Source: Geosiphon pyriformis (Eukaryota > Glomeromycota > Glomeromycetes > Archaeosporales > Geosiphonaceae). From it: a stretch of 64,000 nucleotides of DNA. Both the position numbers and the translations under genes were made by a program. The stretch lies in contig JAAOMT010000226.1 in assembly GCA_016748015.1 (NCBI GenBank), positions 478,604-542,603 of the forward strand, read 5' to 3'. Positions 16,271-62,235 of the stretch are shown in pieces. The notes beneath the pieces are model-generated. The model was given only the letters and a program-made list of their open reading frames with translations. It did no database searches and was not told where the DNA came from. The first letter of the stretch is position 1. Each line of letters starts with the position of its first letter.

Positions 16271-16282
16271 TAAATTAGTATA

Positions 16283-33327: not shown

Positions 33328-33468
33328 AATATATATAATTGGTTATTATATTATACATGTGATATATAGATCATGTAATAAGATATTAATCATTTTTTAT
33401 AGTCCTATCTCTCTATAGTTACCACAAATATGCTAACCAAAAGGTGTGATTATAAAGAAAGTTTACTG

Positions 33469-42184: not shown

Positions 42185-43153
42185 CGTTACTGGAGATTTT
42201 TGGTTTTTTTTCTTGAATGTTATTAATGTTGATTTGCTGTGAATTCACGTTTCCAGGAAGTAGTTGGACCTCCAGTAACTGAATTTATCTTCAAATTATC
42301 TCCTATAATTTGAACTACTGGGCTTATAAGTAGAATGGCCAATTTTTTGCCAGTTACTTTATGTAATTACATTATAGTAAATGTCAACTCTTTCCCAAAA
42401 ATTGCTCATCTGGAAGCTCACTAAAAATGCGTAGTTACTTTGCTGTGAAAGTCAACTCTTCTACAGGAATCTCGTCTGTAAACTACCCTAATGATTATGA
42501 TAAAAAATAAAAATAAAAATAAAAGAAATATAAAAGAAATAAAATTTATCAAGGGAAACGTTTTCTATCCAGACCTGGAGTCATTAACAGATTACTGAAA
42601 TTGGTAGCTAATCAATTTCAAAATATTAGTTGTGTTGAGAGAATTTCAAATGTAATAATCAAAGGATTTGGTTTTCAAATATTTAATTTTTATTTGAGAT
42701 ATGTAAAAAGTGATTTGTTCTAATTAAGATACCTAAAATAAGATACTATGGTAAGATATGAGAAGATATATTTTCTTGAAGAGAGAAGCTCTTTTTTTAT
42801 ACAACTTGTTATAGTACTAGTCTTTGAACTTGCACTTTTCTCTTTGCTATAATTTGGGTGAACTAAAGATACATTTTGGCGAATTTACAAGTTATTTCAC
42901 TGAACTATTGATTATTTCGGCAAATTTTCATTAATTTCGGCGAATTTTGACTATGTTAAAAGGTTCAAGGTATTGTGTAATTTGATTATCTTAATTTCTA
43001 GAGTACAAATCGGATTATTGATTGAGTAATGATATTTGATAATTTGATTAAATAATAAGTGATAATCGAATTAATAATAATGTATGCTAATTAATAATAG
43101 GAATTATAAGTGTAATTTCATGCTAATTAATAGCTAAAATTCTACTGGTAACA
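42185..43153 (-). repeat. 3' LTR of A2
   Basis: Starts CGTTACTGGAG (expected TG changed to CG) and ends CTGGTAACA. It matches 61267-62235 closely, with scattered transitions, e.g. AAACGTTTTC here versus AAACATTTTC at about 61640. Contains TTTCGGC motifs near 42915-42950. Confidence 0.92.
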
Positions 43154-43841
43154 TAATCTCCTCCTCAAGACTGAGCTCTGTCAAAGTCCAAGCACTATCT
43201 GTAATGTTAAGATAGTGGTCCAAGATAATTGAAGTGATTTGGTCTGAAAATTGTTAAAATTTCAGTTCTGTAAGTTTTCCAATGTATTGAACTTTCATTG
43301 GTTGGAGTATTGGATTTTGTAAGACGTTTTTACAAGTGGTGAATAAATCATAGAGTCTAAAAACTGCTCTAAGTTTGTAGTGAGTGTTTGTTGATTCAGC
43401 TGCTGTCTTAAATTCATTGTGAATTTGTTTTTGTATAGCCTCAAGAGTGATGTTGGTTGCTTCAAGTTCCAGTTTTCGTTTGTAAAGTGTTTTTTCAATA
43501 TGAAAATATCTATATATAAGAGTATGTTCATTGTTCTGTTCATTAAGACATAGTAAAAATTTCTGTTAAATTGTGGCATTTGGTGGAATATCAATAGGGG
43601 CAATTAAAAGGTTTTCTTTTAGTGCTTGCTTCAAAAGTTCTGGTAATCTTTTTTCAAAATGACCTCTTGTTTTTCTTCTATAGGGGTGGTAGTTCTGAGA
43701 ATTATTTACTATTGGGGCTGTAGTTTTTTTTTGAATGTAATTAATTTGACTTCCATTAATTGTTATAGATAAGTTAGGAAGTGTTTTCAAAGCTAACATT
43801 AATTTTTGGGATATTTGTTGAATATTTCGGAGAATAATCAT
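43154..43841 (-). pseudogene. A2 integrase C-terminal extension, unknown domain
   Basis: One minus-strand frame from 43841 to the LTR with two stops (TAA for likely CAA near 43567, and TAA near 43257), about 228 codons. It has a basic N-terminal third (QNYHPYRRKTRGHFEKRL), a helical middle with a possible coiled coil (ELEATNITLEAIQKQIHNEF) and a C-terminal third (AVFRLYDLF, IGKLTELKF, DQITSIIL) ending LSLEEEIML over the polypurine tract. The same arrangement (AIYxIHIAFQDRL, LGKIINTQFEEL, QITQVIL) is found in nested B after its integrase. A frameshift separates it from the A2 integrase, but in B it is fused. Function unknown; perhaps a targeting or packaging domain. Confidence 0.6.
43157..43166 (-). 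other. Polypurine tract of A2
   Basis: On the minus strand it reads GAGGAGGAGA, three bases before the 3' LTR. In A1 the same site reads AAGGAAAAAA. It would prime plus-strand DNA synthesis, and it is also read as coding sequence by the C-terminal extension (Glu-Glu-Glu). Confidence 0.75.
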
Positions 43842-43949
43842 GATAAAATTAACTAATTAATGAAAAAGAAGAATAAAGAAAATTATTTTTGGATATGGGG
43901 TTTTATTTGTTTTTGGGTTTGTGTGTTTTTGTAATTTATTTATTATTTT

Positions 43950-45200
43950 TGTCTTTGTGTATTATTAAAAGGATTATTGTAAAATTATATTGAATTTAAG
44001 TGTTCAAGTTTGGCTGTTGTTCTATTATAATTATTGGTTCTAAATTTTGGGAAATATCTTCAGATTTAATTAAAGAGGAATGTGTACCAATTTGTGGAAT
44101 TAATAGTTCAAGATTGTTTCTGAAGGGATAGTGTTTCAAACTATCTCCATGTGCAACTTTTGCTAGTATTTTGTCATCAAGTCTTAACTTGTATGATCCA
44201 TTGTCTAGAATTTCGTGAATATAAAATGGTCCATTCCATTTGTTTTCAAATTTTCCACTCCATTGTTTTTCAGCCTTAGTTTTGTGTAAGAGAACTTTAT
44301 TTTCAACTTTAAATTTGTTGGTTATGGGTGGTAGTTTGTTGTCATGTCTTTCTTTCTGTTAAGCTTGAGAATGTTCAATATGAGTTGCTGCTGTCTTTTT
44401 TTTTCCTTTCAGTGTACTAAGAAGAGTGTAGGCCCTTTTTTGGAGTGTTTTTTGAAAGTTCTCTTCATTAATTGGTTGTACAGAGTATGTTTTCCACTGT
44501 AAAATTAATTGGTAATGTTGCTGTCCTTTCATAAGTTAAATCAAATAGTGTGTGTTTCATAGTATCTTGTTTTAGTATTCTGTATGCTAGTAACACTAAT
44601 GGAATAAAGATATCCCATTCCTGCTCAAAGTCTGTTGAAACTTTGGCTAGAGATTCACACAATGTTCTGTTGAAACATTCTACAAGTTCATTTGTTTGAG
44701 AGTGATAAGATAATGATAGAAATCTTTTGACATTAAATTATTTACAAATTTTTTGTATCAAGTTGTTCACAAAATGTGTTTCTTGATCAGATAAAAGTTC
44801 AATTGAACATCCATGTCTACAAATAATGTCTTCATAGATGAAATTTGCTACTGATTTTGCATTTGCTCTTTGGATGGCTCTAGCTTCAGGCCATTTGGTA
44901 AGATAATCTACTGCAATTACAATATAACAATTTCTTGATTTGTGATAAGTAATGGTCTGACTAAATCAATTCCAACTCTGTCAAAAAGTTGATTGGATTT
45001 AAAGGTTCTGTGGGGTGAGTTTTTCTTCTTTTTTGACAACTATTACAAGATTCTACATATTGTCGAATGTCTTTTTGCATTTGAGACCAAAAGTAATATT
45101 CAAGAGTTCTTTGTATTGTTCCATCTCTTCCCAAGTGTGCTAAAGAAGGATCTGTGTGCATGTTGTATAAGATTGTTTCTTTTTCATTCTCTTGTACTAA
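43950..45200 (-). pseudogene. A2 integrase
   Basis: The zinc-binding domain is open at 44961-45161, with His residues in HTDPSLAHLG and the pair CNSC. The core follows with VDYLTKWPEA (first Asp, near 44900), LLSDQETHFVN (second Asp, near 44800) and LVECFNRTL (Glu, near 44670); 44468-44662 is open. All three catalytic residues are present. A deletion of about 10 bp near 44985 (relative to A1) and other shifts break the frame. It inserts element DNA. Confidence 0.85.
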
Positions 45201-45438
45201 TCTGAGTGGTTGATTTGGATTTCTATGATTCTTGTAATAGATTTTGTTGTGGTGTATAAAATATTGTTTGGATTGGTGTTGTAATCAATGTTTTTCACTT
45301 GAAGACCAATTTTTTGGCATGGTAAGAGTCTCTAAATAGTTTTTGATGTTGTTGTAGTTTTCCAAATCCATTGTTGTTGATTTTGTTATTTGTTCTGCTG
45401 TTAAGTTTGTTGGTGTTTTATTGGTGTTAATATTGGTA

Positions 45439-45800
45439 TTAATATTGTCTCATTCTTGAAAGGCTGTTAACATTGGTGTGTAGTTTTCCTAATTTGTGAT
45501 GTACTATATATTTGTAGTTTGCTAAAAAATCATTCCATCGAGACTGTTTGGCACTTTGTTCTTTTTTATTTTTATTGAGCCATTTGAGGCCAATATTGTC
45601 AGTTATGATGTCAAACTCTTTTCCATTCTTCAGGTATTGTTGAAAGTGTTTAAGAGCCCAAGTGACTGCAACAGCTTTTAGTTCTGTTGAGCCATATTTG
45701 AGTTCTGTTAGCTTGAGTGTTCTACTAGCATAGGCAATGACTTGTTCCTGGCCATTTTCATCCAATTGTAATAGGATGGCACCAAAAGCTATGTGTGAAG
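45439..45800 (-). pseudogene. A2 RNase H
   Basis: Starts VTDASHIAFGAILLQ (first Asp), then STELKAVAV (Glu), DIITDNIGL (Asp), and ends HTNVNSLSRMRQY, where the usual NADALSR has Asp changed to Asn. It is open for 108 codons. It degrades RNA in RNA-DNA hybrids. Confidence 0.85.
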
Positions 45801-45813
45801 CATCAGTAACTAG

Positions 45814-46650
45814 TTAGAACTGTTTGTTGAAGTCTGGGTAAGCAAGAACTGGGGCTGTTGTCAATCTTGTTTTGAGGATTTCAAAAGCTTTTTGTTGTTC
45901 TTTTGTCCATTTGTATGGCACATTTTTGTTGATAAGATAATTGAATGATTTGGCAATTTTTGAGAATCTTTTTATGAATTTCCGATAGTAGGAGGTTAAT
46001 CTTACAAATTCTCTTAGTTCTATGGTATTTTTGGGAGTCTGAAAGTTTTTGACAGCACTAATTGTTCTAGGGTTTGGTTTGACTCTATCTTTGCTAACTA
46101 TGTGTTCAAGAAAAATTAAGCTTGTTTTTCCAAAGTGACATTTCTCAATATTTAACTTCAATTCTGCTTTCCATAATTGTTGAAAAACTTTTCGCAGGTA
46201 AATAAGATGGGCTTCAAAGCTTGATGAGTACACATCAGTGTCATCAAAGTAAACAATTACTGATTGCCATAAAAGTCCTTCATATACAACATCCATAAGT
46301 TGTTGGAATGTTGCTGGTGTATTGCAGAGTCCAAAAGGCATAATATTGAACTTATAGTTTTCTTCTTGGGTGGTGAATGCTGTTTTGGGTCTATTTTTTG
46401 GGTCCATTTCAACTTGCCAGTATTCACTTTCCAAGTCTAAAGTTGAGAAGAACTTGGCTTTTTCTAAAGCATCTAACATGTTATCAATTCTTGGAAGAAG
46501 GTAGGCATCTCCAATTGTGACACTATTCAATTGTTAATAATCAACACAAAATCTGATTTTTCCGTTTTTCTTTTTGACAAAAACTACTAATAAGGCTCAT
46601 GGACTTTTTGATGGTTGAATCAATTCATTATTGAGCATTCTTTGGACCTC
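45814..46650 (-). pseudogene. A2 reverse transcriptase
   Basis: 238 codons are open (46530-45814). Motifs: FSTLDLESEYWQVEMDP (first Asp kept), MPFGLCNTPATFQ, and VYFDDTDVYS, the polymerase box with FDD. Upstream the frame holds EVQRMLNNELIQPS, a stop at the Trp of SPW and KNGKIRFCVDY then a stop at the expected Arg of DYRQLN. A thumb and connection region (HIVSKDRVKPNPRTI, YYRKFIKRFSKIAKS) follows. The polymerase residues are intact, so this copy could have been active before the stops. Confidence 0.9.
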
Positions 46651-47289
46651 TTCTCTAATAAATTGGTGGCTAACAAGTGAAACTTGATAGGCTTGTTGTT
46701 GTTTTGGTAAAGCATCTCCTGTATGGATTTGGTGTTGAACAATATTTGTTTTTCCAAGGTCATTGTTGTCTTTTGCAAATATATCTGCAAATTCAGTTAT
46801 CAATTGTTTCAATTGTTTTTGTTGTTGGGATTCCAAGAGACTCATGTTGATTTGAGAGAGTTTTTCTTCCAAAAGATGGTAGTTTTCAGTAGTAGAAATG
46901 ATGTTTGGATTTGGAAATAGTGTATGTCTTATAATTTCGATGAAATTAGAGACAATTTGAGGGTTTTTATCTTGAAAAATATTACTGTGTATGATTCCAA
47001 TCTCTAGTTTGTTCAATAGGACAATGGGATAATTATTGGGGTTATAGAATGTAACTCAAAATTTTTTTATTTCTTTGGAAATATAAACGTTTAGAATTGA
47101 GATTTCATGCTTCAAACAGATTTGTTCATTGGATTCAAAGATTTTTTGGGTAGTGGTGGGTTTTGAGCAAGTGTTAATTTCGTGATGTTCATCAAAAGGT
47201 GAAATGGTAATTGGTTGGGGAAGTTGAAGAATCTGATAAGATTTATTCTGTGTATTGAGAGCTATATTTACTGAAACTGTAAATTGTCA
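46597..47289 (-). pseudogene. A2 linker between dUTPase and RT
   Basis: 139 codons open (47016-46597) ending in the N-terminal RT segment (KQQQAYQVSLVSHQFIREEVQ). The upstream part (LPQPITISPFDEHHEI) has no domain that I recognise; it joins dUTPase to RT and contains LITEFADIFAK, typical of the start of gypsy RT. Confidence 0.7.
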
Positions 47290-47901
47290 AGTTGAACCAA
47301 AACCTTGAGTTCCTCTTTCACTTTTTTCCAATTGTTCTCTGTTTTTAACTGATTATAACTCTAAAATGTTGATTAAAGGTAGATAAATTGCTTGGACAAT
47401 TTTTTTAGCATGTTCAATCCTGAATGGTTTGTCTGTTTCATTTTGTAACATGATGGTAATGTCTCCAGTATATCCTGCATCTATAACTCCTCCTTTAATA
47501 TTAATTCCTTTGCTTGCCAATGATGATCTGGATGCAATTTGAACTATTGCTCCAGGTGGAATTTCAAGAATGATTTTGAGATTGATTTTTGTCAAGGACT
47601 TTGGTTGGAGAACCAAAGTATCTTTTCCTGGATATCTTAGGTCATATCCAGCATCAATTTCGTGTGCTTTTTTTAGTCTGATTCCTTGGCCATGGTTGTC
47701 AAAATATTTAAGTTGTAGAGATGGTTGCTTTTCAAGAAGATAGATGGGAGTGGTTGGTATTTCTTCTACCAGTTCAGATACTCCAAATTCGATTTCATTT
47801 TCATTATTTTCCTTTGGCAGGGGAATGCTAAGAACATAACATTCTGGACACCATTTGTCATCACAAGGCATGATGCATTCTTCACACAATTGAATGTTCA
47901 T
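47290..47901 (-). pseudogene. A2 dUTPase domain with zinc-ribbon-like N-terminus
   Basis: 182 codons open (47901-47353). It starts with CEECIMPCDDKWCPEC, a CxxC..CxxC pattern, then an acidic linker, then the five trimeric-dUTPase motifs in order: IDAGYDLRYPG, ASRSSLASKG, GGVIDAGYTGDIT, KKIVQAIYLPL, and after a stop (TAA at 47350) RGTQGFGST. All catalytic residues of motifs 1-4 are there. It would hydrolyse dUTP to dUMP, keeping uracil out of element cDNA. The location, between protease and RT within pol, is the notable point. Confidence 0.9.
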
Positions 47902-48354
47902 TTGCTCTAATTGTTGAATTTAAGCTTCTTGAATTAGGTATATGTGGCTTGCAATTTGGTAGTAAGTTTTTACTTCATCTTCATAATCAAATCCAGCTAA
48001 TTCCATGGTATACTCAATGTATTCAGCTTCTTTTATTTGGCAGACATCTTCTTGAGTGGCTCCATTAATCAATGCCATTGCTAGGTCAAAAATTATTTCA
48101 GCATTATGAGAGTGGTAAAGTTTATTGAGAGCACTGTTGTATGCTACATTAAATGATGTTCCTCTTCTGACTTTTTCCGAAATTGATAGAGCATATTAAC
48201 AGGTTTGATCACATATTTTTTCTTTCATTGCAACATCAATCTAGTTGTATTCTTCTGATAACATATCTCTACATATAAGGCAAGGTGTGTTGTTCTATTT
48301 TCCACTTCTTTTTGGAGATCCAAATTGTTCTCTATGGTATGCTTTGCAAAAGTA
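47902..48354 (-). pseudogene. A2 cysteine-rich segment, 3' part
   Basis: Follows the nested B insertion. It contains CLICRDM and CDQTC pairs and a helical stretch (AEIIFDLAMALINGATQEDV) before the dUTPase. With 58521-58650 it forms one segment with four or more Cys pairs. Confidence 0.6.
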
Positions 48355-48358
48355 ACAG
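48355..48358 (+). other. Target duplication ACAG, left copy
   Basis: ACAG precedes nested B and is repeated at 58517-58520 immediately after it. Joining the flanks restores the A2 sequence as in A1 near 11355. A 4-bp duplication fits the A1 flanks too. Confidence 0.9.
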
Positions 48359-49220
48359 TGTTACTTATAAAAATATAGGGAATATATATTAGCATAGTTA
48401 TTAACCAATCAGAAATAGACATAGTAAAATGTAGAATTCCAGGATTTCTCTTAGGAATTGCAGGATTTCAAGAATTCCAGGATTCTCACAAGGAATCACA
48501 GGATTCTAGAATTCCAGAATTTCTCTCAAAAAAATTGCAGAATTCTAAGAATTCCAGGATTCCTGTTGTGAAGAATTGAGAAATTGAGAAATCTCAATTA
48601 TGTATATATAGTAGTAGAATTAAAAGCTAAAAAAAGAGACCTTCAAGTTTAGATTTTATTTAGACAACCTTCTAAACACAATAAATAACTATTTGGTATC
48701 TCAAACCTAATTCCACTATTAACACTCTATGTTGATAATAATTGATACTTAAACACACTAGAACAATAGCTTTTGATCACGGCTATTGATGGGATATTAA
48801 CTTGCAAAATTGTCTTGGTTTATTTATGATTTTCTTTTATTTCTTTTATTTATTTTATTTTGATTTTATTGTTGTGCACTAATTGGTTGAATAAAGTGCT
48901 AAATTACTAACATCAAGAATTGTCTGGTAAAAGACTTCTGTGAGAGAGGATAGGACATGTACAGAAGATACAAAATACTTACCAGAGGATTGCCGGCCAT
49001 TACATTAAGAAAAAAATTAACAGAATTGCGATTCTAAGAAGCTATGGATAAAACAACTATTGAATCTCTGTCCATTATACAAAAAACTCAACCCGAAACC
49101 TTTAAATACAAAATCTTCAGATACAAAACCTTCAGATTAATAACATCAATGCAAATAACTTTTAGCACCAAGTTACAGGTTTGTTATTTGATTTAACATC
49201 CCAAATAATCATTTGTAATA
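48359..49220 (+). repeat. 5' LTR of nested B
   Basis: Starts TGTTACTTATAAAAATATAG and ends TTTGTAATA (expected ...ACA). An imperfect array of GGATTCCAG/GGAATTGCAG units (48433-48560) precedes TATATATAG at 48603-48611. It pairs with the LTR at 57681; the many differences are largely C/T and G/A. Confidence 0.93.
48603..48611 (+). promoter_or_regulatory. TATA-like box in B LTR
   Basis: TATATATAG followed by TAGTAG is conserved in all B-type LTRs seen (3591-3602 on the minus strand, 48603, 57925, 63606), just after the variable array, so it is the likely U3 core promoter. Confidence 0.5.
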
Positions 49221-49236
49221 TTTGGTGCTCCCTATG
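49221..49236 (+). other. Primer-binding site of nested B
   Basis: TTTGGTGCTCCCTATG follows the LTR; TGGTGC is complementary to a tRNA 3' end GCACCA. The same site occurs after all B and A LTRs here (TTTGGTGCTC or TTTGGTGCTT), so the families share one primer tRNA. The tRNA was not identified. Confidence 0.7.
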
Positions 49237-51400
49237 AGGTATAATTCTACAAAAAACCAGCACCAACAACCCCATTCAAAAGTGGCAGAATCAGAAAACA
49301 TCAGAGCAAACCATCTAGGATTCACAAAATTTTTATTTCAACATTACTGTCAATATTTGGGATTAACCCATAATCACATATTAGCAGAATTAGCTTTCAA
49401 TTTCTATGTCAATGAAAAGATTGCCTATCTGTTAAGAACATCCATGAATATTGAATCAGCGAGAGAAACTTTTTACAACAAATTAATTCAAAACACCAGC
49501 CTACCCATAAATCATAATTTCGCATCCATTATTACTGAGATCAACAAAGAAATTGAACACCACATACAGCAAAGATACCCAATTACTTACACAAGTAAAG
49601 GCAAAGGAAAATTACAAACACCAGCAGTAACATCTCAAAGAATACAACCATCCACTTGAAAGAAAACTAGAATTAAGTCCTCAAACAACCCATCCTACTA
49701 CTATACTCCTGGAAGTGCCATCAATATATCATTAACAGATGCGTCTGCATCAAATGTGACATCAACATTTGGATGTTTCCCATTTCAAAGTAAACAAAGA
49801 AAAAAAGATTTACTAGGACCATACGGCGAGTATTTTAAAGGATTTAAATCTCAATCGCTGATGCCATCAGGATTTCAATCACCACCACCTCAACCAAATT
49901 TCGGAATCATGAGTCTGTGGAAAATTACTGAATCAGAAAGAGGACAAGAAGTAGAAGAGGAAAAAAAATCTAAGGATCACAAATTTACTTACCAAAACCC
50001 GATCCTAGAAAACCCAGAAAGTAAAACTCCGAACTTTCAAACCCAGCCAAATTTAGACAATCAGAAAAACAACACTCCGAATATTCAAACACCACCAAAT
50101 CAGAACAATCCAAACTTCAAAGTAATTAATCAATACTTACCTTCAGTTATCGTCATTGATCAACCACCCGTTGAACCAATTGGCCAGCCCATCCAACCAC
50201 AGAACCAACAAAATCAACAACTGCTACCAGTACCACCTCAACAACAACAACAACTTCCACCACCACAGCAACAACAAATGGCTTATGCACCCATCACAAA
50301 ACTTGACAAATTCAATAGTGAAGAAGACGATGTCCAAGTCTGGTTAAATGACATAGCCAAAGCCATTACAGCCAATAATTGGGATGATGCTAAAGCAATG
50401 CAAGCAATCCCTTACTTTCTTCAGAATACCACTGATGCATGGTATCAAAGTCTTGCTGTCAAATCCCAAAATTTTAATGGATTCAAAACTGAATTCTTGC
50501 AGTACTTTAGCAACAATAATAGTATCAACAAATTAGCCAACACTTTTACAATGATCAGACAAGGAGACACTGAAGCAGTCACTACCTACTTGGAATGTTT
50601 CTATAAAAATCTACGCCAAATACAAGCCATTCAAGCCAACTATTTCACAGCACCACAAATTTTAAATCAATTTATTAGAGGATTGCACAGTAGCATTCTA
50701 CAATGAGTACATCCAATGCACCTAGTGAACCTTCCAACCACAGTCACATATGTTAGAGATTTTGAAGCAGCTAAACTAGAAGCTAATCATGCTCAAGCTG
50801 TAAATCTAGCAATAAATAGATCATCTGAATTGGATTCCAAATTGAAGCAATTCAGTGATTCAATTAATCAGAAATTAGAAGGATACTTAGCTGACAATTA
50901 CATGATTTATCAACCTCCTCAACAGTGTAACAATCAGAGAAACACAAATCATTTCCAAAATTAGTCATGTCCATTGTCATCATCCAATCAGTTGTGGCAG
51001 CCAGAGACATGTGTCTGCCACAACTGTGGTAAACAAGGGCACATCAAAGCCAACTGCCATACTTATAGCAATCCATGATCGGGAAATCAATATAGAAACC
51101 CCAATTGCTGGTTCCAAATTCCGAACCATTACCTGAATCAAGACCAATACCAACCTACTTACCTGTCTATAATGTACTAACCAATTTATCAACCACCAGT
51201 TTATCAAACTCCAGTTTATCAATTGCTGCCACAAGCAATTTATCAGGTGCAGTTACAAGTAATATATCAACCACAGCCACCAGCAATCTATCAAACACCC
51301 ACTATTCAAACACCACCAGCAAACTCAGCTCAAATGACATCAAGGAACCCAAGATCAAGGATCACCCAAAACTGGAGATCAGCAATAGTTGTATATCAAC
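49234..51400 (+). pseudogene. Nested B gag with zinc knuckle
   Basis: The first ATG (49234) overlaps the primer-binding site. The N-terminal 140 residues are followed by a Gln/Pro/Asn-rich stretch (about 50000-50280), then the gag core (VQVWLNDIAKAITANNW, about 50329; FKTEFLQYFSNNN, about 50485) and a CCHC knuckle, CHNCGKQGHIKANC, near 51018-51058. Stops: TGA at 49658 and 50704, TAG at 50963, TGA at 51077, TAA at 51178. Related copies have Arg at 50704. The protein would package RNA. Fused in frame to pol. Confidence 0.85.
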
Positions 51401-51559
51401 TGATCCCTAGCTCTTCTTACTAGTAATCAAGATCTTGTCAGTGGAATTCGGGCACCGGTCCCACCCAAAACCCAAATTTCCAATACTATTTAAGCCTTCG
51501 GGTGACTCCAGAAGATGCCACCTTCAGCAATTAGGGAATCAAACAACAACAACCACTTA

Positions 51560-52000
51560 TCAATAATATCCCACCTGCTACAATTACCAAAAATAAATCT
51601 TTGGATGCCATTTTTCCATTCAAACTCGAGGAACTATCAAATACGCTATTATTCAGTGGAGTAGCACTTGAAGAGAAACCGATTACAGCCATATACACTA
51701 ACGCCAAGGTCAATGGCCATTCCATCAAATTAATCCTTAACAGTGGTTCAGCAGGCAGCATTATCACATGACAACTTATGGATCAATTAAGTTGCCGAGT
51801 TGATCGTGCTGTTAGCACCAAGATTATCACCATGGATAGAGCCACCAAAATCCCAATTGGCAAAATCAATGACTTCTTAATTGAAGTTAATAGCATCATA
51901 GTACCCATCAAAGTTTTGGTAATAGAAGCCACCCAATACTAAGTGTTAGTTGGTAATAACTGGCTATTCAAAACCAACACTGTGCTCAATTAAACAACTC
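51560..52000 (+). pseudogene. Nested B protease
   Basis: A retropepsin-like domain with ITAIYTNAKVNGHSIK before the active-site loop LILNSGSAGSIIT near 51730-51768. The expected catalytic Asp (DSGS) is Asn (AAC for GAC). Later VLVIEATQY then a stop, then VLVGNNWL, the second-half flap-type motif, near 51945. Stops are TGA or TAA. It would mature the polyprotein but is dead by both defects. Confidence 0.8.
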
Positions 52001-52009
52001 AAAAACTAG

Positions 52010-52965
52010 TACTCAGCCAGAATGGTTGACACATACAAGTACCAACAATGTGTAGTCACTTCAAAGCTATCAACACCACAGCACCACTAATTAATCTCAA
52101 AGAAGAAAAACCAAAACCTACCTGAGAAGTGTATCAAGTCTTGTGGGCTGACAAAGAACACAACGAGCTACTGCCAATACTCTCATGAGATAACAATGGC
52201 AAAGAAAAACAGAAAAGAACAGAACCTACCTGGAATGCAGACCAAGTTTGGGACACCAATCACAACTTAGAAGAACCACCAATTTGGAGATGGGATAAAA
52301 GAGAAAAAGAAAAAGAAAAAGTGAAGGAAGAGGAGCCACTACCAACTGCCAGTTACATCCCTTATACATATACACCACCACAATTATTGAGCTATCATTG
52401 ACTAAAGCTTATATGCATTGATTGTGGCAAAAAATTGTTGTCAATAGGCACCTGCTGTGGCGATGACGAGGAATACCAGATGGCAACTAAGTTCTATTGT
52501 CACACATGTCTCATCGAATGCTTTGAAAGACCAAAACAAATGAGAAAATGGGATAATACACTATGTTTAGCATGTGGGAAAACTTTCCTCAACAAAGGAA
52601 TGTGGAATGACATTCCTGGAAAAGAAGAAATGTGCAATAAAACCTGCCAGTATATAATACTAATCAATAATTAGGTATGCAAAGGAACACCAATTGATAA
52701 CGCCTGGAAATGAGCATTATAATGATTGGAAGGATATCCATATGACAAACATGAACTTTGAAGAATGGCGAGTGCAAAGGCAAAAGGTGCAACAACCAGT
52801 GAACTACTAGAAATCAAAAACAACCCCCTATCTTTGCCTGAACCTGAATACATCCTAATGTTTGACATATTTGACAACATTGAAGATGATTCGGAAGAAT
52901 TCTATGAACACTATCAATGGTTGGCATCTACTTGAGAAGAACAAAAGCAACAGTTAGAAGAAATA
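52010..52965 (+). pseudogene. Nested B cysteine-rich segment
   Basis: Between protease and dUTPase. A charged linker with two parallel PT-W/stop-E-VYQV units (52118 and 52223) shows TGA exactly where the second unit has TGG. Then CIDCGKKL (52411), CCGDD, CHTC (52500), CLACGKTF (52567) and CNKTC (52633), pairs of CxxC that suggest zinc ribbons. A2 and A1 have the same kind of segment. Role unknown. Confidence 0.7.
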
Positions 52966-52971
52966 AACACT

Positions 52972-54099
52972 CGACTATGTGACCACTGTTTGATTTCATG
53001 TGATTTCCAATATTGTAATGAGTGTGACCTCATTTACAATCCGTCACTATGCATGATCTACATAATCCCAGAGGAAGAGGAACCAATCAGCAGCTGTGCA
53101 TCAGAATTGGAATCAATTTTTAATCCCGATTTAAACTCTGATAACGATGATGATAAAAACACTAGTTCCAGCTCTATCCAATATGGCAATATCAATAACA
53201 ACAATTCCAATTCAGATTTAAACTCCGATCCAGACTATAAACAATATATTGCACTCCCTGATCTCGCCAAAAAACAGGAACTTAAATGGTTTAGCAATAA
53301 TAATGAAGGTATTATGCCAGAACGTGCACATAATACTAATGCCGGGTTTAATCTGAGATATCCAGGAAAAAAGGCCATCCAATTGGAACCACATTCACAC
53401 ACCTGCATTGATTTGAAAATAGCACTGGAAATTCTGGCAACAACAATAGTTCAATTAGTATTTAGGAGTAGTCTAGCGAAAAGAGGGATAAATATAAGAG
53501 GAGGAATAATTGACATGGGATATGTAGGAAATATTATTGCCATGCTACAAAATAACTCAGAAAAGGCCTATATTATAGAGCCAAACAAAAAGATAGCACA
53601 GGCAATATTTCTGCCTCTGGTTAAAGTAGCTCAATTAGTGTCAGTAAGAAACAGAGAAAAATTAGGGATAACAGCAAGAGGGATACAGGGATTCGGATCC
53701 ACAGGTAGAATAGATATACCAGTCAATATGGCAGAGGAAGAAATTGTTGGCCAAGAAGAAATTGTCTCAACTGGTCAAGCAATTTCTATTGCACTATATG
53801 GCCAGTACATGTTAGCAATAGAAAGGAGAATGAAAGATCAAGCACAGATTTTTGAAGCAGAAGCAACCCTTTGTAAATCAGGAGAGATTGGACTTATTAA
53901 TCTCCACATATCTGCCAAAAGCCACAATCATATCAAAATTCTTATCTACAATACAATAGAAGATGCCATCACAATACCAAAAAGAACTATCATTGAATAC
54001 CTAAGCACTGAATTAAAAGATCAACCACCAAGCATTATTCCAAATTTTCCACAGCTTTGTGGATATGTGGATATTACATCACAAACAATATATGGATGA
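52972..54099 (+). pseudogene. Nested B dUTPase and following linker
   Basis: Open for 369 codons (52990-54099), the longest uninterrupted frame in the window. It begins CDHCLISCDFQYCNEC, then an acidic linker, then dUTPase motifs: NAGFNLRYPG (motif 1 with Asp changed to Asn twice), FRSSLAKRG, GGIIDMGYVGN, NKKIAQAIFLPL and RGIQGFGSTG. The motif 3 Asp is kept. It is followed by about 120 residues to a stop before RT. The N for D changes are G-to-A. It probably was active once. Confidence 0.88.
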
Positions 54100-54171
54100 A
54101 ATAAATGTTATTTGCTCCAACCAGAACAATTGGAACAAATGAACATGGGAAACTTAGACCCACTTTAATGT

Positions 54172-55221
54172 ATGCAGCTTAAAATATTGCTTAATAATTT
54201 CAATAACATTTTTGCCAGCAAAAACAAATTTGGCAGAACTGATATCATCCAACACCAGATCAAAACTGGAGATGTGATGCTAATCAAACAAAGAGCATAC
54301 AGAATACCACTAACCAGTCATGAAATCATCCATCAAGAAATCAACCAAATGCTTGACAATGGTTTAATTCAGCCATCAATGAGCCCATGGTCATCACCAG
54401 TAGTACTTGTCCATAAGAAGAATAGAAAAATCCGATTTTGTGTAGACTACAGGAAACTCAATGATGTAACTTGGGGAGACAGCTATCCAACTTCATGGAT
54501 ACAAAAACTATTCGATGCTTTTGGTGGAAACAAATAGTTCTCAACGTTAAACTTGAATAGTAAGTACTGACAAGTAGCCATGGATTCAGCTGACAAAGAA
54601 AAAATGGCATTTACCACAAGAGAGAAAAACTTTGAGTTTGAAGTTATGCCATTTGGCTTAACCAATGCTTCAGCTACATTCCAACAGCTAATGGAAATTG
54701 TGTATACTGGCTTATTGTGGAAATCAGTAGTTGTATACTTGGATGATACCAATATGTTCTCAAAAACATTCAATAATCATTTACGTCATTTCCAACAAGT
54801 GTTCGAAAGACTACAATGAGCAGGATTAAAATTGAATGCAACAAAGTGTTTTTTTGGCAAAACAGAACTAAAATTCTTGGAACACATAGTTAGCAAAGAC
54901 AGCATAAAAACAGATCCAGAGAAAATAGAGATAGTAAAGAACTTTCCAATACCAACCAACGTAACTAAGCTGAAATTATTCTTGGGATTTGTGAGCTATT
55001 ATAGATGCTTTATAAAGAACTTTTCAAAGATAGCACAATCACTCAATGATCTTCAAACCAAAAATGCAAAGTATGAATGGACTGAAACCCAGCAAAAAGC
55101 ATTTGACATCTTAAGAAGAAAGCTTATTCAAGCTCCAGTATTGATCTATCCAGATCATAGTAAACCATTTATTATTACCACTGATGCATCAAGTCAAGCA
55201 TTGGGAGTAGTACTATCTTAA
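54172..55221 (+). pseudogene. Nested B reverse transcriptase
   Basis: Frame continues: EINQMLDNGLIQPS, SPWSSPVVLVHKK, IRFCVDYRKLND, then a stop, FSTLNLNSKY then TGA where Trp is expected, KMAFTTREKNFEFEVMPFGL, and YLDDTNMFS (polymerase box, intact). The first catalytic Asp (FSTLD) is Asn. HIVSKDSIKTDPEKIE, GFVSYYRCFIKNFSKIA follow. Four stops lie in the domain (54535, 54568, 54817, 55219). It would make cDNA. Confidence 0.9.
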
Positions 55222-55560
55222 AGAGGATTGGATGAAAGAGAACATCTAGTTGCATATACTAGCCAAGGTTTGACTCCAGTCGAAAAAAACTATAGAACAC
55301 CAGAATTAGAACATCTAGCAATCTATTGGACAGTTATAAAATAGAAAGAATACTTGAGCCAAAAGTTTGAGGTGTACACAGATCACAAAAGATTGACATT
55401 ACTTCAAAAACAAGAATTTGGTGATAAAAGACAGTCAATATGGAAAATGGCTCTTTCAACATATACTTATACTATACATTATAAAAAAAGAAAAGACAAT
55501 GGAAATGCTGACAGTTTGTCATAAATGAGACAAATCTAAGAACATTTCAACCCAAAAACA
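55170..55560 (+). pseudogene. Nested B RNase H
   Basis: TTDASSQALGVVLS (Asp), TPELEHLAIYW (Glu), VYTDHKRLTLL (Asp) and GNADSLS (Asp): all four catalytic residues are visible, with a TAA at 55219, TAG at 55345 where Trp or Lys is likely, and TAA at 55522 at the expected Arg of LSRM. Still in the gag-pol frame. Confidence 0.85.
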
Positions 55561-55749
55561 TAACAAAACCAAAAAAATACTCACGAAAATATAACAAAAG
55601 ATGAACACACAAAAATATCAACAACTTTAACATTATATAAACACTCAACAATTCAAGGAGAATTTATCTCAACCAAAACAAAAGAGAATCAAACAACAAT
55701 CCAAATATTTTATTACTCACCAAAATATATTTTATCAGAAAAATAGAAA

Positions 55750-56880
55750 AGATTCAGATCAATCAACCAGAGTAATTACAGAACCAGAAAAGGAGACAAT
55801 ACTGTTCAACATGCACTCAGATCTAACTGCAGGACATTTTCATAAAAAAACAACCATGAAAAGAACCAGAAAGAGATACTATTGGTCATCAATGTATCCA
55901 AACATCATCCAATATGTGCAAAATTGTGATGCTTGTCAAAGAAAAGAAGGAACAAGACCCAGCAAACCATTGAGACCAATCAAAGTGGAACAACCATTTA
56001 ACTGTATTGGAATTGATTTAGTTGGACCATTAACAATTACCAGCAGAGGCAACAGATATATTGCAGTAGCCATAGACTATATTACTAAATGGCCAGAAGC
56101 CAAAGCAATTCAAAGAGCAGATGCAGAATCCGTTGCCAAATTTGTCCATCAAGATCTGATTTGTTGACATGGATGTCCAAAAAAACTATTATCAGACCAA
56201 GGAACCCATTTTGTGAATAGAACATTAACAGAACTAAGCTGAAGATTCGAAATTAAGAGACCACTATTATTATCATACTATCCACAAACCAATGGATTAG
56301 TTGAAAGATTTAATAGAACATTGTGTGAAGCAATAGCAAAACTCAGCCAAAAAAACCAGGACAAATGAAATTTGTTCATACCATCAGTATTATTTGCTTA
56401 TTGGACAATGAAGCAAGACACCACACAAGCAACATCATTTGAATTAATATATGGTAGAACAGCAACATTACCAGTTGAGATAGAGGTTAACACATATTTA
56501 ACTAAACCAATAACAGAAGAGAATTTCCAAGAAACATTGTTAAGAAGAACATATGACTTAATGGAAACATTAAAAAACAAATGAAGAAGAGCAGCTGATA
56601 ATATACAAAAGTTACAAAAGAAACAGAAAAAAAAACATGATAATCAACTACCAGACAAACCAGTTGAATTCAAGATTGGAGACAAAGTACTCTTACATTG
56701 TACCAAAGCAGAAAAACAATGGAGTAGAAAATTTGACTCCAAATAGGATAGACCATTTCACATAAAAGAAATTCTAGGGAATAGAGCTTATAAATTAAGA
56801 CTGGATAACAAAATCTTAACCAAAGCAGCACATAGAAATTGACTAAAACCATACCATAACATCACACCACTATCTACCAG
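55750..56880 (+). pseudogene. Nested B integrase with GPY/F-like end
   Basis: After a single one-base frameshift near 55750. Zinc-binding HSDLTAGHFH..CDAC (55814-55935), core Asp in AIDYITKWPEA (about 56080), LLSDQGTHFVN (about 56190), Glu in GLVERFNRTL (about 56300). All three catalytic residues are kept. The C-terminal RPFHIKEILGNRAYKLRL (about 56750) is GPY/F-like. TGA stops at 56166, 56241, 56368 and 56583. It would insert element DNA. Confidence 0.9.
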
Positions 56881-57680
56881 TAATATTTCACAATTAGGAG
56901 TACAGAAGATACTAGTCTAACCAGAAGAGATTCCACGAGATCTGGAATCAATCATCATCATTGACAACAACACGTTAAATTAATTCATCAAAAAAATATA
57001 TAAAGACATGATAGATGTGACAAGAAATATCAGAAAAATATAAATTACAGACAACATCCACTCACTAGCACAACAACTCTTTCAATTGATTCAACACCAA
57101 GAGATAAAAATTACAATTAATCAACAAATCATCTAATATCAAGACACTAGAAAGACATCATTACATAGAACACAGAAGAAAACAGAAAATACTATTGACA
57201 AAATTATTGCGAAAGTAAAATTAGCAATAAAAGAGTCAACAAAAGAGTCACTATACTAAGAGTTGACTAAAGAAACTTGGAATTGGTGGATACAACAATT
57301 TCCAAGAAACTATTGTTATTTTTACTTGGGACAATACATGAATATCCAGAATCTATATACAGATAAAACAAAGCGATTATTCGACACAAGAATACTATAA
57401 CAATTAGAACATTTTTTGGAAAAAAACAACTTATCCACACAGGCCCAAGCCATATACTGAATACACATAGCATTTCAGGATCGACTAGAAATCTTACTCA
57501 ACAAAGCAATGGATACAGTTACCAGTAATCAATTAGGAAAGATTATCAACACTCAATTTGAAGAATTACAGACTCAAATAACACAAGTAATTCTCAAAAA
57601 TGAAATTTAGGAAATACTTTAAAAAAGGGAATTAACAGAGTTAGATTTCAATGGAGCTCAATATTAAAAAGAGAGAATAA
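56881..57680 (+). pseudogene. Nested B C-terminal extension of pol, unknown domain
   Basis: The integrase frame continues past the GPY/F-like region for about 260 codons, crosses the polypurine tract and enters the 3' LTR. It has an acidic start (PEEIPRDLESIIIIDNN), a helical, Gln/Lys-rich centre and an end with AIYxIHIAFQDRLEILLNK and LGKIINTQFEELQTQITQV. These last blocks line up with the end of the A2 extension. Stops (TAA, TAG, TGA) are at likely Gln or Arg codons. The conservation across two families argues for a real, unclassified domain. The last blocks are also seen in remnant D (TGAQF, stop, KKRDNI near 62940; here NGAQY, stop, KRENNV). Confidence 0.6.
57666..57680 (+). other. Polypurine tract of nested B
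   Basis: AAAAAGAGAGAATAA runs up to the 3' LTR start at 57681. It overlaps the end of the pol frame. It would prime plus-strand synthesis. Confidence 0.7.
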
Positions 57681-58516
57681 TGTTACTCATAGAAATATAG
57701 AAAATATATATTAGCATAGTTATTAATCAATCAGAAATAAATATAGTAAAATGTAGAATTCCAGGATTCCTTTCAGGAATTGCAGGATTCTAGGAATTAC
57801 AGAATTCTCACAAGGAATCGCAGGATTCCAGAATTCTAAGATTCCTCTTAAAGGAATTGCAGGATTCCAAGAATCCCAGGATTTTTATTGTGAAGAATTG
57901 AGGAATTGAGGAATCTCAATTATGTATATATAGTAGTAAAATTAGAAACTAAAAAGAGAGACCTCCAAGTTTAGATTTCATTTAAACAATTTTTCAAACA
58001 CAATAAATAACTATTTGGTATCTCAAACCTAATTCCACTATCAACACTCCATGTTGATAGTAATTGATACTTAAACACACTGAAACAATAGCTCTTGATT
58101 ATGGCTATTGACAGGATACTGACTTGCAAAATTACCTTGGCTTATTTATGATTTTCTTTTATTTTTTTTATTTTGATTTTATTGTTGTGTACTAATTGGT
58201 TGAATAAAGCACTAGATTACTAATATCAAGGATTGCCTGGTAAAAGACCCCTGCAAGAGGGTAGAACACGTACAGAAGATATGGAATACTTATCAGAAGA
58301 TTGCTGGCCATCATGCCAAGAGAAAAATTGACAGAATTGCGATTCTGAGAAACTACAAATAAAACTACTATTGAATCTCTGTCTATTATACAAAGAACTC
58401 AACCCAAAACCTTTAGATACAAAACCTTCAGATTAATAACATTAATGCAAATAACTTTTAGCACCAAGTTACAGGTTTGTTATTTGATTCAACACTCCAA
58501 ATAATCACTCATAACA
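57681..58516 (+). repeat. 3' LTR of nested B
   Basis: TGTTACTCAT to CTCATAACA, pairing with 48359-49220. It keeps the TG...CA end that the 5' copy has lost. The array of GGATTCCAG/GGAATTGCAG units is at 57755-57890, and TATATATAG at 57925. Differences to the 5' LTR are mostly transitions and go both ways. Confidence 0.93.
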
Positions 58517-58520
58517 ACAG
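58517..58520 (+). other. Target duplication ACAG, right copy
   Basis: Second copy of the ACAG next to the 3' LTR of nested B; see 48355-48358. The A2 sequence continues after it. Confidence 0.9.
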
Positions 58521-58650
58521 ATACAAGTTTTATATTCCTCTTCTGGAGAAATACATGTTTCTATTAATGAAAGTTTCTTGTTGCAATCTTTGCATTTAAG
58601 TGGAATATAGGGTGGTTGTTTTTATAGTTCTGGTGTAGAATATCTAACTT
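58521..58650 (-). pseudogene. A2 cysteine-rich segment, 5' part
   Basis: The minus strand reads CKDCNKKLSLIETC then EEEYKTCICC, directly before the insertion of nested B. Joined with 47902-48354 it gives a Cys-rich stretch similar to 52411-52645 in nested B (CIDCGKKLLSIGTCC). Confidence 0.65.
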
Positions 58651-58654
58651 TTTT

Positions 58655-59300
58655 CTATCCTCTTAATTCTTCAAAAATCTTCTGTTTTGTTTCTTCAGCC
58701 CAATTGGATATTGATCTAAAAGCCATGTAGATTTTAGTAAATGACATTTTTTTCTTCTTTTCAAATTCAAATATTGGGGCTTTTTCTGATTGTTTGTTAA
58801 AAGTACCACAAGTAGCAAGTACTATGGTGTATTGTTCTTGGTATGAGATTTTTAATTCCTGAGTTTCCCAATCCAAGTTTGCATTGGCCTTAAGAAGCCA
58901 ATCATTTCCGACCAGAGCTTGGTATTGGAGTGCATCCATGACTAGAACTTTGACTAGAATGGTGATTTTATCAATAGTAAATAGAAAATTGTCAATTTCT
59001 CCTACTGGTGTCTTTTTTATATTATTTGCTGTAACAATTACAGTTTGGGCTGGTCTGTCAACAGTTCTTTAAAGCTGTTGCATTAACTGGTAGGTGATAA
59101 TACTTTCAGCTGATCTATTGTCTAGAATTAATCAGATGGATTTTCTTTCTATTGTAGCTTTAGTGTACATGGCAATGATAGCTCTTTGTTCATTAGCTGC
59201 TGTATTACTAAGCAAGAATGGTGATTCATTTGCTTTAAATTCGAATGGGAATATATCTAAAAGATTGGCATTTTGGGCAATTTGAGCTGGTGAAATAGTG
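58655..59300 (-). pseudogene. A2 protease region
   Basis: 94 codons are open at 58655-58939, with LVGNDWLLKANANLDW and a C-terminal tail containing the YMAFRSISNWAEE linker. The active-site loop lies upstream near 59105-59130 and reads LILDNRSAES, expected DSGSAGS, so Asp is kept but Ser, Gly and Gly changed by G-to-A. A TGA precedes it. The protease would mature the polyprotein. Confidence 0.75.
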
Positions 59301-59699
59301 TTGTTGGAAGGGTTTGATCTGAGTGCTGCAACTTCATTTTCAGAAAGTGCAGGTTGTTGAAAATCCGATTTTTCTGGTATTGTAAGATAACTGGGTTAAG
59401 TATGATAGTAATTGGGTTTTTGCTGACCAGAATTTCAGAGAACTAACTGGTTATTTGGATTGATTCTGTTGTTGTTATTCTGAAATTGATTTTGGGATGT
59501 GAATTAGTTATGTTGAACCAATCTTCTTGCTGGTACTTGATATTGTTAAGTGGGTGGTATCTGATATGGCTGAATTGATAATGGTTGCTGATATTGTTGC
59601 TGTATTGGTTGTGGAGCTGGTTGATAATAACTGTTTTGATTTGTGGTCTTGGTAAATAATAAGTTGGTGGTGAAGATTGGTAATAAGATTGTTGTGGTG

Positions 59700-61221
59700 A
59701 AGAGTAACGTTGATTACTCCTGTTTTGTTGGTCTCTTTGTAATTTTTTACAATCTCATTTCCAATGTCCTGAAATTCCATAATAATGACAATTTTGAGGT
59801 TGGTTATAGGATGGTGATCCAAAATAGTTTTGGTTGTGTCGTTGTGAGGGTTGATATCTTTGTGGTTGTTGTTGCTGTTGTTGTTGGTTTGTGAAGTAGC
59901 TTTCAACCTTCTTTGTGAGTTGGTCTATCTTCTCTTCAGCTGCTGAACTGGTTTCTCCAATAGCTAAGTTGACAAGTTTGGTGTGGTTTGCTTCTTTTAT
60001 AGCCATTTCATAGTTCTTTGCATGTCTGATGGCAGTTGCTAAGTCTGTTGGTACATGTAGATGGACTTTCTTAATCAATTTGTCTTTTAATCCTGCTATA
60101 AACTGATCCAGAATCTGAGCATTAGAATAGTAGTCATTGGTTTCCAATTGTCAAATTCATCGAAGAAGTTTGTTGAATTTCCCAAGATAGGTCATAACAG
60201 TTTCAGATGTTTTTTGTTTGATATTGTGAAAGCAATTGTGGAGAGTGATAGAGGTGTTGTTGTCAGTGAATTGTTGTAAAAAAGCATCTTTAAATGCTTG
60301 TTAGTTTTCAAATAGTTCTTCTAAATTTTCAAACCATTTTTCTGCTGTTCCTTGGAGAAAGTAGGAAATTGCTTTGAGCATTTTTGCTGCAATCCAACCA
60401 TTTGCATCTTCTGCTTTTTGAACTTTGTCAAGCCATTTTTGAGGACTGGTATCATTGTCTTCACCAGTAAATTCTGGAATTTTTACAATGTAAACAGTTG
60501 TCATTTCTTCTTTGTTTCTTATGATTTCTTCTGGTTCTGATTTAGTTTCTTCAATTTTCAAGCTTTCTGAATGATTACTTTTATTTTCCTGTAAGTAATC
60601 AATGATATTGGCACTTGTTGATATTGGTTCTTGTTGTTGAATAGGATTTCTAGGTGACTGAAAATCTTCTGGTCTGGAGAAACGGTTAAGTAGTGAACTT
60701 GGTGTTTGTGGTTGAACAAGTAAAATTAGAAATAGTGTAATAGAAAGTAGTAATTTGACACTGGTTCCTTGTTCAGGTGTTTACAAGTGTTTGGCAGTTG
60801 TCTTTGGTAATATTGAAGTGTTTGGAGTGGTTCTTAAGTATTGTTTCACTTTTTGTTTGTCTTTGTTGCTTGTCTTTGTTTCTGATTCAAAGTTAAAAGA
60901 GTATTTGGGCTGTACTGGGTATTTTTTTTCACAATACTCAATAATATTAAAATTAAGTTCTTGGAAGTAGGTAGCTAGTGTTTCACTGTTCAGGTCTTCT
61001 GTTCCCAATTGTGAATAGTGCACTAAATTATTGTAGAGATTGCTTCTAACTTCTGAAATATTGTAGTTTCTAAAAAGATAATTGTTGATACAATTTTCAA
61101 TGTATTGGTATACTGATTTTTTGACAACTTCAATTTCGTCTGAGATGTTGAATCTTTGCTTGCAGTGGGTGTAAATTGACTGATAATACTCTAAAGTTGT
61201 TGTGTTTGGTGTGGTCGCCAC
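59700..61221 (-). pseudogene. A2 gag
   Basis: Starts at the ATG 61219-61221, 45 nt inside the LTR end. Open at 60781-61221, 60301-60561 and 59755-60147, all in one frame. The core has VKIPEFTGEDNDTSPQKWL (60440-60500) and KAISYFLQGTAEKWFENL. A Gln-rich run (NQQQQQQQPQ) precedes a knuckle reading CHYYGISGHWK then stop then DC: the second Cys is Tyr and an Arg is TGA, both transitions. Gag would package RNA. Confidence 0.85.
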
Positions 61222-61266
61222 TTTGAATTTGTTGTTGCTGTGTTATTTCTATGGGAAAGCACCAAA

Positions 61267-62235
61267 TGTTACTGGAGGTTTTTGGTCTCTTTTCTTAAAT
61301 GTTATTAATGTTAATTTGCTGTGAATTCACGTTTCCAGGAAGTAGTTGGACCTCCAGTAACTGAATTTATTTTCAAATTATCTCCTATAATTTGAATTGC
61401 TGAACTTATAAGTAGAATGACCAATTTCTTACCAGTTACTTTATGTAGTTATGTTATAGTAAACATCAACTCTTTCCCAGTAATTGCTCATCTGGAAGCT
61501 CACTAAAAATGTGTAGTTACTTTGCTGTGAAAGTCAACTCTTTTACAGGAATCTCATCTGTAGGCTACCTTAATGATTATAATAAGAAAAAAAAAAAAAT
61601 ATAAAAGAAATATAAAAGAAATAAAATTTATCAAGAGAAACATTTTCTATCCAGACCTGGAGTCACTAACAGATTACTGATATTGGTAGCTAATCAATTT
61701 CAAAATATTAGTTGTGTTGAGAGAATTTCAAATGTAATAATTAAAGGATTTGGTTTTCAAATATTTAATTTTTATTTGAGATATGTAAAAAGTAATTTGT
61801 TCTAATTAAGATACCTAAAATAAGATACTATAATAAGATATGAGAAGATACATTTTCTTGAAAAGAAAAGCTCTTCTTTTATACAACTTGTTGTAGTACT
61901 AGTCTTTGAACTTGCACTTTTCTCTTTGCTATAATTTGGGTGAACTAAAGATACATTTCGGCGAATTTACAAGTTATTTCACTGAATTATTGATTATTTC
62001 GGCAAATTTTCATTAATTTCGGCGAATTTTGACTATGTTAAAAGGTTCAGGGTATTGTGTAATTTGATCATCTTAATTTCTAGAGTACAAATCGGATTAT
62101 TGATTGAGTAATGATATTTGATAATTTGATTAAATAATAAGTAATAATCGAATTAATAATAATGTATGCTAATTAATAATAGGAATTATAAGGATAATTT
62201 CATGCTAATTAATAGCTAAAATTCTACTGGTAACA
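61267..62235 (-). repeat. 5' LTR of A2
   Basis: TGTTACTGGAGG next to the primer-binding site (plus strand AAAGCACCAAA, 61256-61266) and CTGGTAACA at the end. Same length as the left LTR. Confidence 0.92.

Follow-up and report, generated by a model that had tools for sequence, protein, structure and literature searches.

Repeat-induced point mutation (RIP), the system of Neurospora, works before meiosis on duplicated DNA longer than a few hundred bp. Another type of C-to-T decay of transposable elements (TEs), of the CpG type, has been described in basidiomycetes and truffle; in the accessible text of the study it is linked to Masc2/Dnmt1 class II and ascribed to deamination of 5-methylcytosine (5mC) (PMC4352252). 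RIP-type defence is regarded as restricted; a k-mer screen found signatures of repeat-directed mutation only in ascomycetes, and its main text does not name Geosiphon (PMC12543289). The sections available of two further sources apply a composite RIP index to early-diverging fungi (PMC11105155) and report that RIP signatures were not detected in Gigaspora margarita (PMC8647823). In this study, we analyzed a stretch of 64,000 nucleotides of Geosiphon pyriformis (GenBank assembly GCA_016748015.1, contig JAAOMT010000226.1, positions 478,604 to 542,603), hereafter the window, and in it element B, a nested Ty3/gypsy long terminal repeat (LTR) retrotransposon whose coding frame is interrupted by many stops. 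G. pyriformis is a soil fungus housing cyanobacteria. The copies of B are heavily changed by C-to-T conversion on both strands, and B decayed after insertion by a cytosine decay directed at transposons, with cytosine methylation and steady deamination as the best-fitting and, in our judgment, probable cause.

Copies of B were collected by searching the genome with 1.4 kb of pol DNA. Forty of 2862 first-look candidates were scored, the window included, and the others are 87-90% identical. The best-scoring 20 of the 39 others were used; one of them (L015) was dropped for masked bases, which gives 20 aligned rows including the window. The best-scoring copies favour gap-poor ones, and the indel rates are therefore underestimates, while the LTR pair of B was not so chosen. 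The gag half was compared by MAFFT between the window, copy L025 and three more divergent copies; many 1-nt gaps of default blastn vanish under MAFFT, and the MAFFT counts are used.

The gag-pol frame of B (49234-55750) contains 32 stops (15 TGA, 10 TAA and 7 TAG), and each of the other five frames 130-162. The stops at 55537, 55561 and 55744 are common to 19, 20 and 20 of the 20 rows, respectively, and mark the family's own end of frame, not decay, and the one at 55522, present in 10 rows, is ambiguous. A total of 28 decay stops thus lie before 55500 (29 if 55522 is counted) in an unchanged frame, in agreement with the initial annotation, which had counted about 28 without a shift of frame and derived them from CGA, TGG and CAA codons. 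For 27 of the 28, one or more of the other copies have a CAA/CAG, CGA or TGG codon instead, namely at all eight stops of the pol half, where 19 other copies were compared, and at 19 of 20 in the gag half, where four were. Two stops of B are separated by a transversion (A>T) from the codon most often found in the other copies, which counts against a C-to-T origin there. Between 52936 and 55500, the 20 rows have 195 stop instances at 46 sites, of which 194 are explained by C>T or G>A only. This holds provided that, in 58 instances where the stop and the most frequent sense codon are C>T plus A>G apart, both codons go back to CGA.

All pairs of the pol alignment together give 87736 transitions and 5676 transversions (15.5:1) with 698 gaps, or 134 substitutions per gap. 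The window differs from the 19 copies over 4.0-4.8 kb by 449-599 substitutions and 0-5 gaps per pair. Among columns with at least 18 rows, the biallelic ones comprise 752 C/T and 809 A/G, compared with 37 A/C, 34 A/T, 12 G/T and 4 C/G (87 other); 104 columns with three or four letters were excluded. Only 206 C and 95 G columns are invariant, and 1561 of 1862 C/G columns (84%) vary among the 20 rows. In the gag half, the closest pair (window and L025, 3.66 kb) shows 453 substitutions, 449 of them transitions and 4 transversions, and two gaps of 6 and 31 nt. The other three gag copies give 483:85, 537:66 and 537:123 transitions to transversions against the window, with 2, 6 and 6 gaps, and their extra transversions represent older differences between sublineages. 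The two LTRs of an element are identical at the time of insertion. Those of B now differ by 94 transitions, 5 transversions and 3 gaps (under other gap costs, 90:5 with 5 gaps), those of the L025 copy by 65:1, and those of A2, the element into which B is inserted, and of its relative A1 by 45:6 and 100:9. A younger family was found by a search with the reverse transcriptase (RT) domain, in which 150 of 6000 candidates were scored, and by a search at the DNA level (40 of 2815 scored, 93-96% identical); its set of eight 1 kb pieces, the query piece and seven others, gives 1472 transitions, 33 transversions and zero gaps over all pairs, and its singletons are 84 C>T/G>A, 2 T>C/A>G and 3 transversions. 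The hypermutation by C-to-T conversion which the initial annotation had proposed is strongly supported by these ratios, as is the scarcity of indels in pol, gag and LTRs. A context-free mixture of transitions and transversions with many indels is not what the other copies show.

Of the 46 stop sites in the 20 rows, 37 are common to 2-9 copies and one to 15, a distribution that would suit a family pseudogenised at its source, whose copies inherited their stops. Recurrent hits, however, give the same sharing. Linkage was tested on 18 rows, the shorter rows L012 and L018 being left out. The 776 transition columns have a mean r2 of 0.0598 (0.0587 permuted) and 37 stop sites 0.0613 (0.0594 permuted), whereas 18 transversion columns reach 0.2296 (0.0495 permuted). 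The pairwise sharing of stops is no more uneven than permuted either (variance 1.74 versus 1.94). The few transversions keep the structure of the family, of which the C-to-T changes retain almost nothing. Since transition columns and stops are unlinked and transversions are linked, the C-to-T changes and the stops arose separately in each copy, after insertion. Inheritance of the stops, rejected on the linkage of the stop sites, is therefore extremely unlikely. Mosaicism of the assembly as a source of the zero linkage was ruled out, as the transversion columns retain theirs.

The fraction of cells converted in B depends on the 3' base, with 0.661 at CpG, 0.156 at CpC, 0.123 at CpA and 0.119 at CpT, and on the 5' base, with 0.203 after T, 0.190 after C, 0.107 after A and 0.106 after G, columns with more than 60% T being left out of the context counts. 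All contexts are affected, CpG in about 66% of cells, pyrimidine-C in about 17% and purine-C in about 8%. The younger family shows 0.262, 0.070, 0.047 and 0.044 at CpG, CpC, CpA and CpT. In B, CG occurs in one or more rows at 126 sites, whose cells are CG in 405 cases, TG in 906, CA in 814 and TA in 201. Within CpG of B, there is no preference for a 5' T (TCG 0.618, ACG 0.663, CCG 0.701, GCG 0.762). Plant-like CHG methylation was considered and rejected, with 0.097 at CAG and 0.099 at CTG versus 0.129 at CAH and 0.126 at CTH in B.

The two strands are nearly equal within each context (C>T/G>A 0.659/0.663 at CpG, 0.153/0.175 at YpCpH and 0.073/0.087 at RpCpH, with Y for pyrimidine, R for purine and H for any base but G), G>A being slightly higher outside CpG. 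APOBEC-like enzymes make changes on one strand with a 5' pyrimidine preference. Editing of the cDNA by such a single-strand cytosine deaminase before insertion would agree with this preference in B and with the dUTPase that B encodes; for the bulk of the changes it is contradicted by the equality of the strands and by the LTRs of B, which come from one cDNA and differ in both directions, and is scarcely credible. The same pyrimidine-C preference would be expected from ultraviolet damage at dipyrimidines, and the organism lives at the soil surface. However, most conversion falls on CpG, the gene loci examined are not affected, and tandem CC to TT changes are not in excess in B (63 and 92 seen versus 67.4 and 118.9 expected; in the younger family 1 and 6 versus 2.1 and 3.4), so that such damage is a most improbable cause.

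The observed/expected ratio of CpG is 0.13 in A1, 0.17-0.19 in A2 and 0.22 in B, compared with 0.98 in a glycosyltransferase gene of the window and 1.05 in the AT-rich DNA adjoining it (24300-28000). Unannotated stretches of the window are depleted as well, with 0.04 at 1-5200, 0.37 at 15300-20300, 0.16 at 28000-34000 and 0.08 at 34000-42000. Elsewhere in the genome, seven methyltransferase loci have 0.68-1.03, the younger element L053 has 0.69, and 10 of 11 loci around microsatellites 0.59-1.18; the eleventh, the unannotated L051 (GC 0.11), is also CpG-depleted (0.12). A genome DNA search with the glycosyltransferase gene gave only microsatellite-like matches besides itself. Its protein, as a joined query, is 96% identical over 87% to a protein of G. 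pyriformis, and a methyltransferase encoded on the window's contig likewise matches a protein of this species over its length. For the AT-rich DNA no repeat was seen within the DNA stretches compared. GC falls to 10% in part of it (26001-28000). Because CpG is normal there, the AT-richness of 24300-28000 has a cause other than TE decay.

A duplicated gene serves as a further control. One methyltransferase locus occurs twice on the window's contig, about 32 kb apart (L031 at C318:788280, L035 at C318:820713); in L035 conserved positions are altered, and this copy is possibly a pseudogene. A piece of 911 bp with 89.8% identity shows 40 transitions, 17 transversions and 4 gaps, with 6 of 74 CpG positions changed versus 34 of 285 other C/G positions, and a second piece of 234 bp shows 10:5. 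Against the total of 50:22, TE pairs differ with Fisher p from 0.017 (LTRs of A2) to 5e-17 (gag pair). Over the window and the loci sampled, the decay is directed at transposons and leaves the examined gene loci alone. Neutral decay of the ordinary kind, with a mutation bias towards AT across the genome, would agree with the AT-rich window and its stretches down to 10% GC, but not with the normal CpG of the AT-rich DNA by the gene, nor with the spectrum and gaps of a gene duplication of equal identity, and is very improbable. Classical RIP as in Neurospora, which is RID-dependent, CpA-preferring and triggered by homology, would produce C-to-T changes on both transposon strands while the gene loci examined stay unhit. 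The CpA preference was sought in B and not found, CpA being close to CpT and far under CpG; the composite RIP index is negative (B -0.73, A2 -0.57, A1 -0.22), and the duplicated gene locus is not hit, so that this process is a very doubtful candidate. The initial annotation had left open a RIP-like process or deamination of methylated cytosine; hypermutation as such was borne out, and its classical RIP form was not.

The B copies carry similar loads (0.139 +/- 0.011), which show no correlation with their private transversions (rho -0.06). Between the families, the load of B exceeds that of the younger one 3.6-fold at CpG, 2.5-fold at YpC and 2.9-fold at RpC. The corresponding ratio of transversions is 3.4 (95% confidence interval 1.1-16.5), or 1.9 when only biallelic columns are used in both, as the private transversion count of B depends on the three-letter columns (141 versus 67). 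The changes are not patchy in the B copies (variance 1.07). The initial annotation had placed the hypermutation shortly after insertion. This quick burst is not upheld, given a load that rises with transversions between the two families, the absence of patches and strand runs that are at most weak, although one nested pair, A2 and B, points to exposure that is uneven. We read the data as steady decay with element-specific exposure, episodic hits being a less likely reading.

The alternative is a RIP-like enzymatic process with a CpG/YpC preference, acting on repeats in episodes, for example in a hidden sexual stage. It would explain why both strands are changed independently in each copy, why the load of B is near constant and does not follow private transversions, why B, nested and younger, is loaded twice as heavily as A2, the older element around it, and why the pooled strand runs are weakly positive; in addition, RID is listed for the clade of arbuscular mycorrhizal fungi in the accessible part of one study (PMC8298701). 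Patches are absent, however, the load scales with transversions between the two families, though with a wide interval, and the gene duplication at 90% identity on the window's contig was not hit. We therefore regard episodes as an unlikely but serious explanation.

Several points weigh against methylation followed by steady deamination. The linkage of transversions rests on 18 columns, and transition columns less than 200 nt apart are slightly linked (r2 0.065). Strand runs pooled over the 20 rows are weakly positive (mean z 0.48, two rows above 2, combined z 2.2). Since B is nested in A2, A2 is older, and its half load violates a simple clock: transitions per C/G site are 0.159 in the LTRs of A2 versus 0.319 in B (Fisher p 7e-6). 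Either the A2 LTRs were homogenised by gene conversion or exposure is unequal between elements. In the younger family, copies differ in their private C-to-T load, from 4 changes to 27 (chi-square p 5e-7), with 18 and 27 in L059 and L060 and 4-9 in L053-L058, which fits different ages and also episodic hits. The gene-duplication control is a single locus that may be under selection. The methylation of the B and A copies is itself deduced from the spectrum, and the heavy load outside CpG would be left unaccounted for by a system that only maintains CpG methylation.

The enzymes that methylation would need have candidates in the genome. A profile search with PF00145, in line with the search for DNA methyltransferase (DNMT) genes suggested at the outset, gave 10 matches at about seven loci, one of them DNMT1-like by its relatives in the PDB. 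Two loci are presumably DNMT2, judging by motif. A query joined from pieces of two loci matches BAH-bearing DNMTs of other Glomeromycotina with a coverage of 25-48%, and PDB searches with the BAH-DNMT pieces gave no match. A BAH-less DNMT of 540 aa is also encoded and has relatives in several Glomeromycotina. The combination of BAH and DNMT domains is assigned to DIM-2/Masc2 in the accessible text of the study on basidiomycetes (PMC4352252).

Under methylation and steady deamination, the course of events would be as follows. B inserted into the older retrotransposon A2, where transposon chromatin would carry dense 5mC at CpG and also at non-CpG sites, laid down by the genome's own methyltransferases, such as the DNMT1-like enzyme and the relatives of BAH-type DNMTs. 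There, 5mC would be deaminated steadily to T with poor repair, which would yield C-to-T changes on both strands, and stops would follow from CAA, CAG, CGA and TGG codons. Indels would be rare because only cytosine chemistry is accelerated.

The initial annotation had also counted one frameshift as decay, which the copies do not support. The frame of gag and pol is closed at 55537 and 55561, as described above; the +1 frame, which is that of the integrase, has stops at 55526 and 55592 in every one of the 20 rows, and the +2 frame has one at 55602 in all 20. Downstream of 55592, every stop site in the integrase frame is common to at most 10 of 20 rows, and the ATG at 55601 is kept in 17 rows and is ATA in three. 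As the break is present in 20 of 20 rows, it belongs to the architecture of the family, not to decay, and the integrase may be translated as a separate frame. A separate integrase frame is unusual for Ty3/gypsy.

The features of the window are listed in Table 1. B has the LTRs, gag, RT, RNase H and an integrase downstream of RT that characterize Ty3/gypsy elements. Its LTRs align over 48359-49211 and 57681-58507 with 88% identity, and ACAG on both flanks (48355-48358 and 58517-58520) is read as a putative target-site duplication of 4 bp. For the protease, which should lie between gag and dUTPase, the domain search gave only a non-significant match (E 0.16). A dUTPase domain (PF00692) lies within pol of both B and A2 (47356-47919, minus strand in A2); set beside cytosine deamination, its carriage by the two elements is suggestive. 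In 14 of the 20 copies, the first half (49234-52894) is only about 71-78% like the window and the pol half (52894-57680) about 88%, and it seems that sublineages of the B family have exchanged gag modules. An inverted repeat pair (16011-17523 and 33471-34983) is 70% identical, with 309 transitions and 122 transversions, and is older. Scans of the window for tRNAs and with Rfam gave no matches.

Table 1. Coordinates of features in the 64,000-nucleotide window.
Feature	Position	Strand	Basis or remark
Element B, Ty3/gypsy LTR retrotransposon	48359-58516	+	LTRs, gag, dUTPase, RT, RNase H and integrase pieces
B 5' LTR	48359-49220	+	3' boundary placed by homology to 3' LTR
B gag-dUTPase-RT-RNaseH frame	49234-55536	+	28 in-frame stops before 55500, one more at 55522; frame unchanged
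B Retrotrans_gag domain (PF03732)	50407-50688	+	E 1.7e-9
B dUTPase domain in pol frame (PF00692)	53305-53706	+	E 1.8e-19
B reverse transcriptase domain piece (PF00078)	54571-54813	+	E 1.6e-12
B RNase H domain piece (PF17919)	55078-55218	+	E 9.2e-15
B family-wide frame break	55537-55600	+	Shared stops
B integrase frame (+1)	55601-56940	+	ATG at 55601; 8 decay stops in window copy
B Integrase_H2C2	~55781-55945	+	Inside integrase frame
B 3' LTR	57681-58516	+	Ends TGTTA...TAACA; LTR alignment and direct sequence reading
Element A2, left part, Ty3/gypsy with dUTPase, host of nested B	42186-48358	-	LTR 42186-43153
Element A2, right part	58517-62235	-	LTR 61268-62235
Element A1, relative of A2	5215-15056	-	LTR pair present
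Glycosyltransferase host gene	21804-24038	+	Control; CpG ratio in text
AT-rich DNA adjoining glycosyltransferase gene	24300-28000	.	Control; GC 0.20, CpG ratio in text

If the decay of B is general, negative results for RIP in early-diverging fungi that rest on an index need to be redone by alignment, and divergence overestimates the ages of transposons, so that "old bursts" are maybe younger than they look. The footprint is consistent with cytosine methylation, and it occurs in a group which a review of 2026, in its available text, includes in a list where N6-methyladenine (6mA) largely replaced 5mC (PMC13297926). A literature search, mostly of listings and with little subscription text, found no such spectrum reported for Geosiphon or any arbuscular mycorrhizal fungus. 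Within the literature searched, the host group, the mixed spectrum of CpG and pyrimidine-C and the invisibility to the composite RIP index are new. The Glomeromycotina lineage has long been called asexual. More tentatively, as a possibility we hold to be well short of probable, Glomeromycotina might possess their own system for mutating transposons, with C-to-T change in all contexts, a 5' pyrimidine preference and methyltransferase-coupled or enzymatic deamination, working continuously and without meiosis and missed by CpA-based indices.

Compared with the known systems, the decay of B shares with Neurospora RIP the change of C:G to T:A on both transposon strands, the stops, the few indels and the sparing of the gene loci examined, but it lacks the CpA preference, its composite index is negative, and it left the single gene duplication compared (two pieces, 911 and 234 bp; n=1, possibly under selection) unhit. 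An index screen of the kind applied to early-diverging fungi, as far as the available text describes it (PMC11105155), is negative for B despite the heavy mutation and would miss it. The TpCpG pattern of Microbotryum, cited in the accessible text of PMC4352252, is alike in its CpG target and in the 5' T that is raised overall in B, and unlike in that TCG is the lowest of the four CpG contexts in B. With the CpG-type decay described in the same text (PMC4352252), B has in common CpG as the top target, a transition/transversion ratio far above 2 and the presence of relatives of BAH-type DNMTs; it differs in that non-CpG sites are also heavily hit, in the 5' pyrimidine preference and in its host, a member of Glomeromycotina. 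The decay of B thus works more like methylation-linked decay than like RIP.

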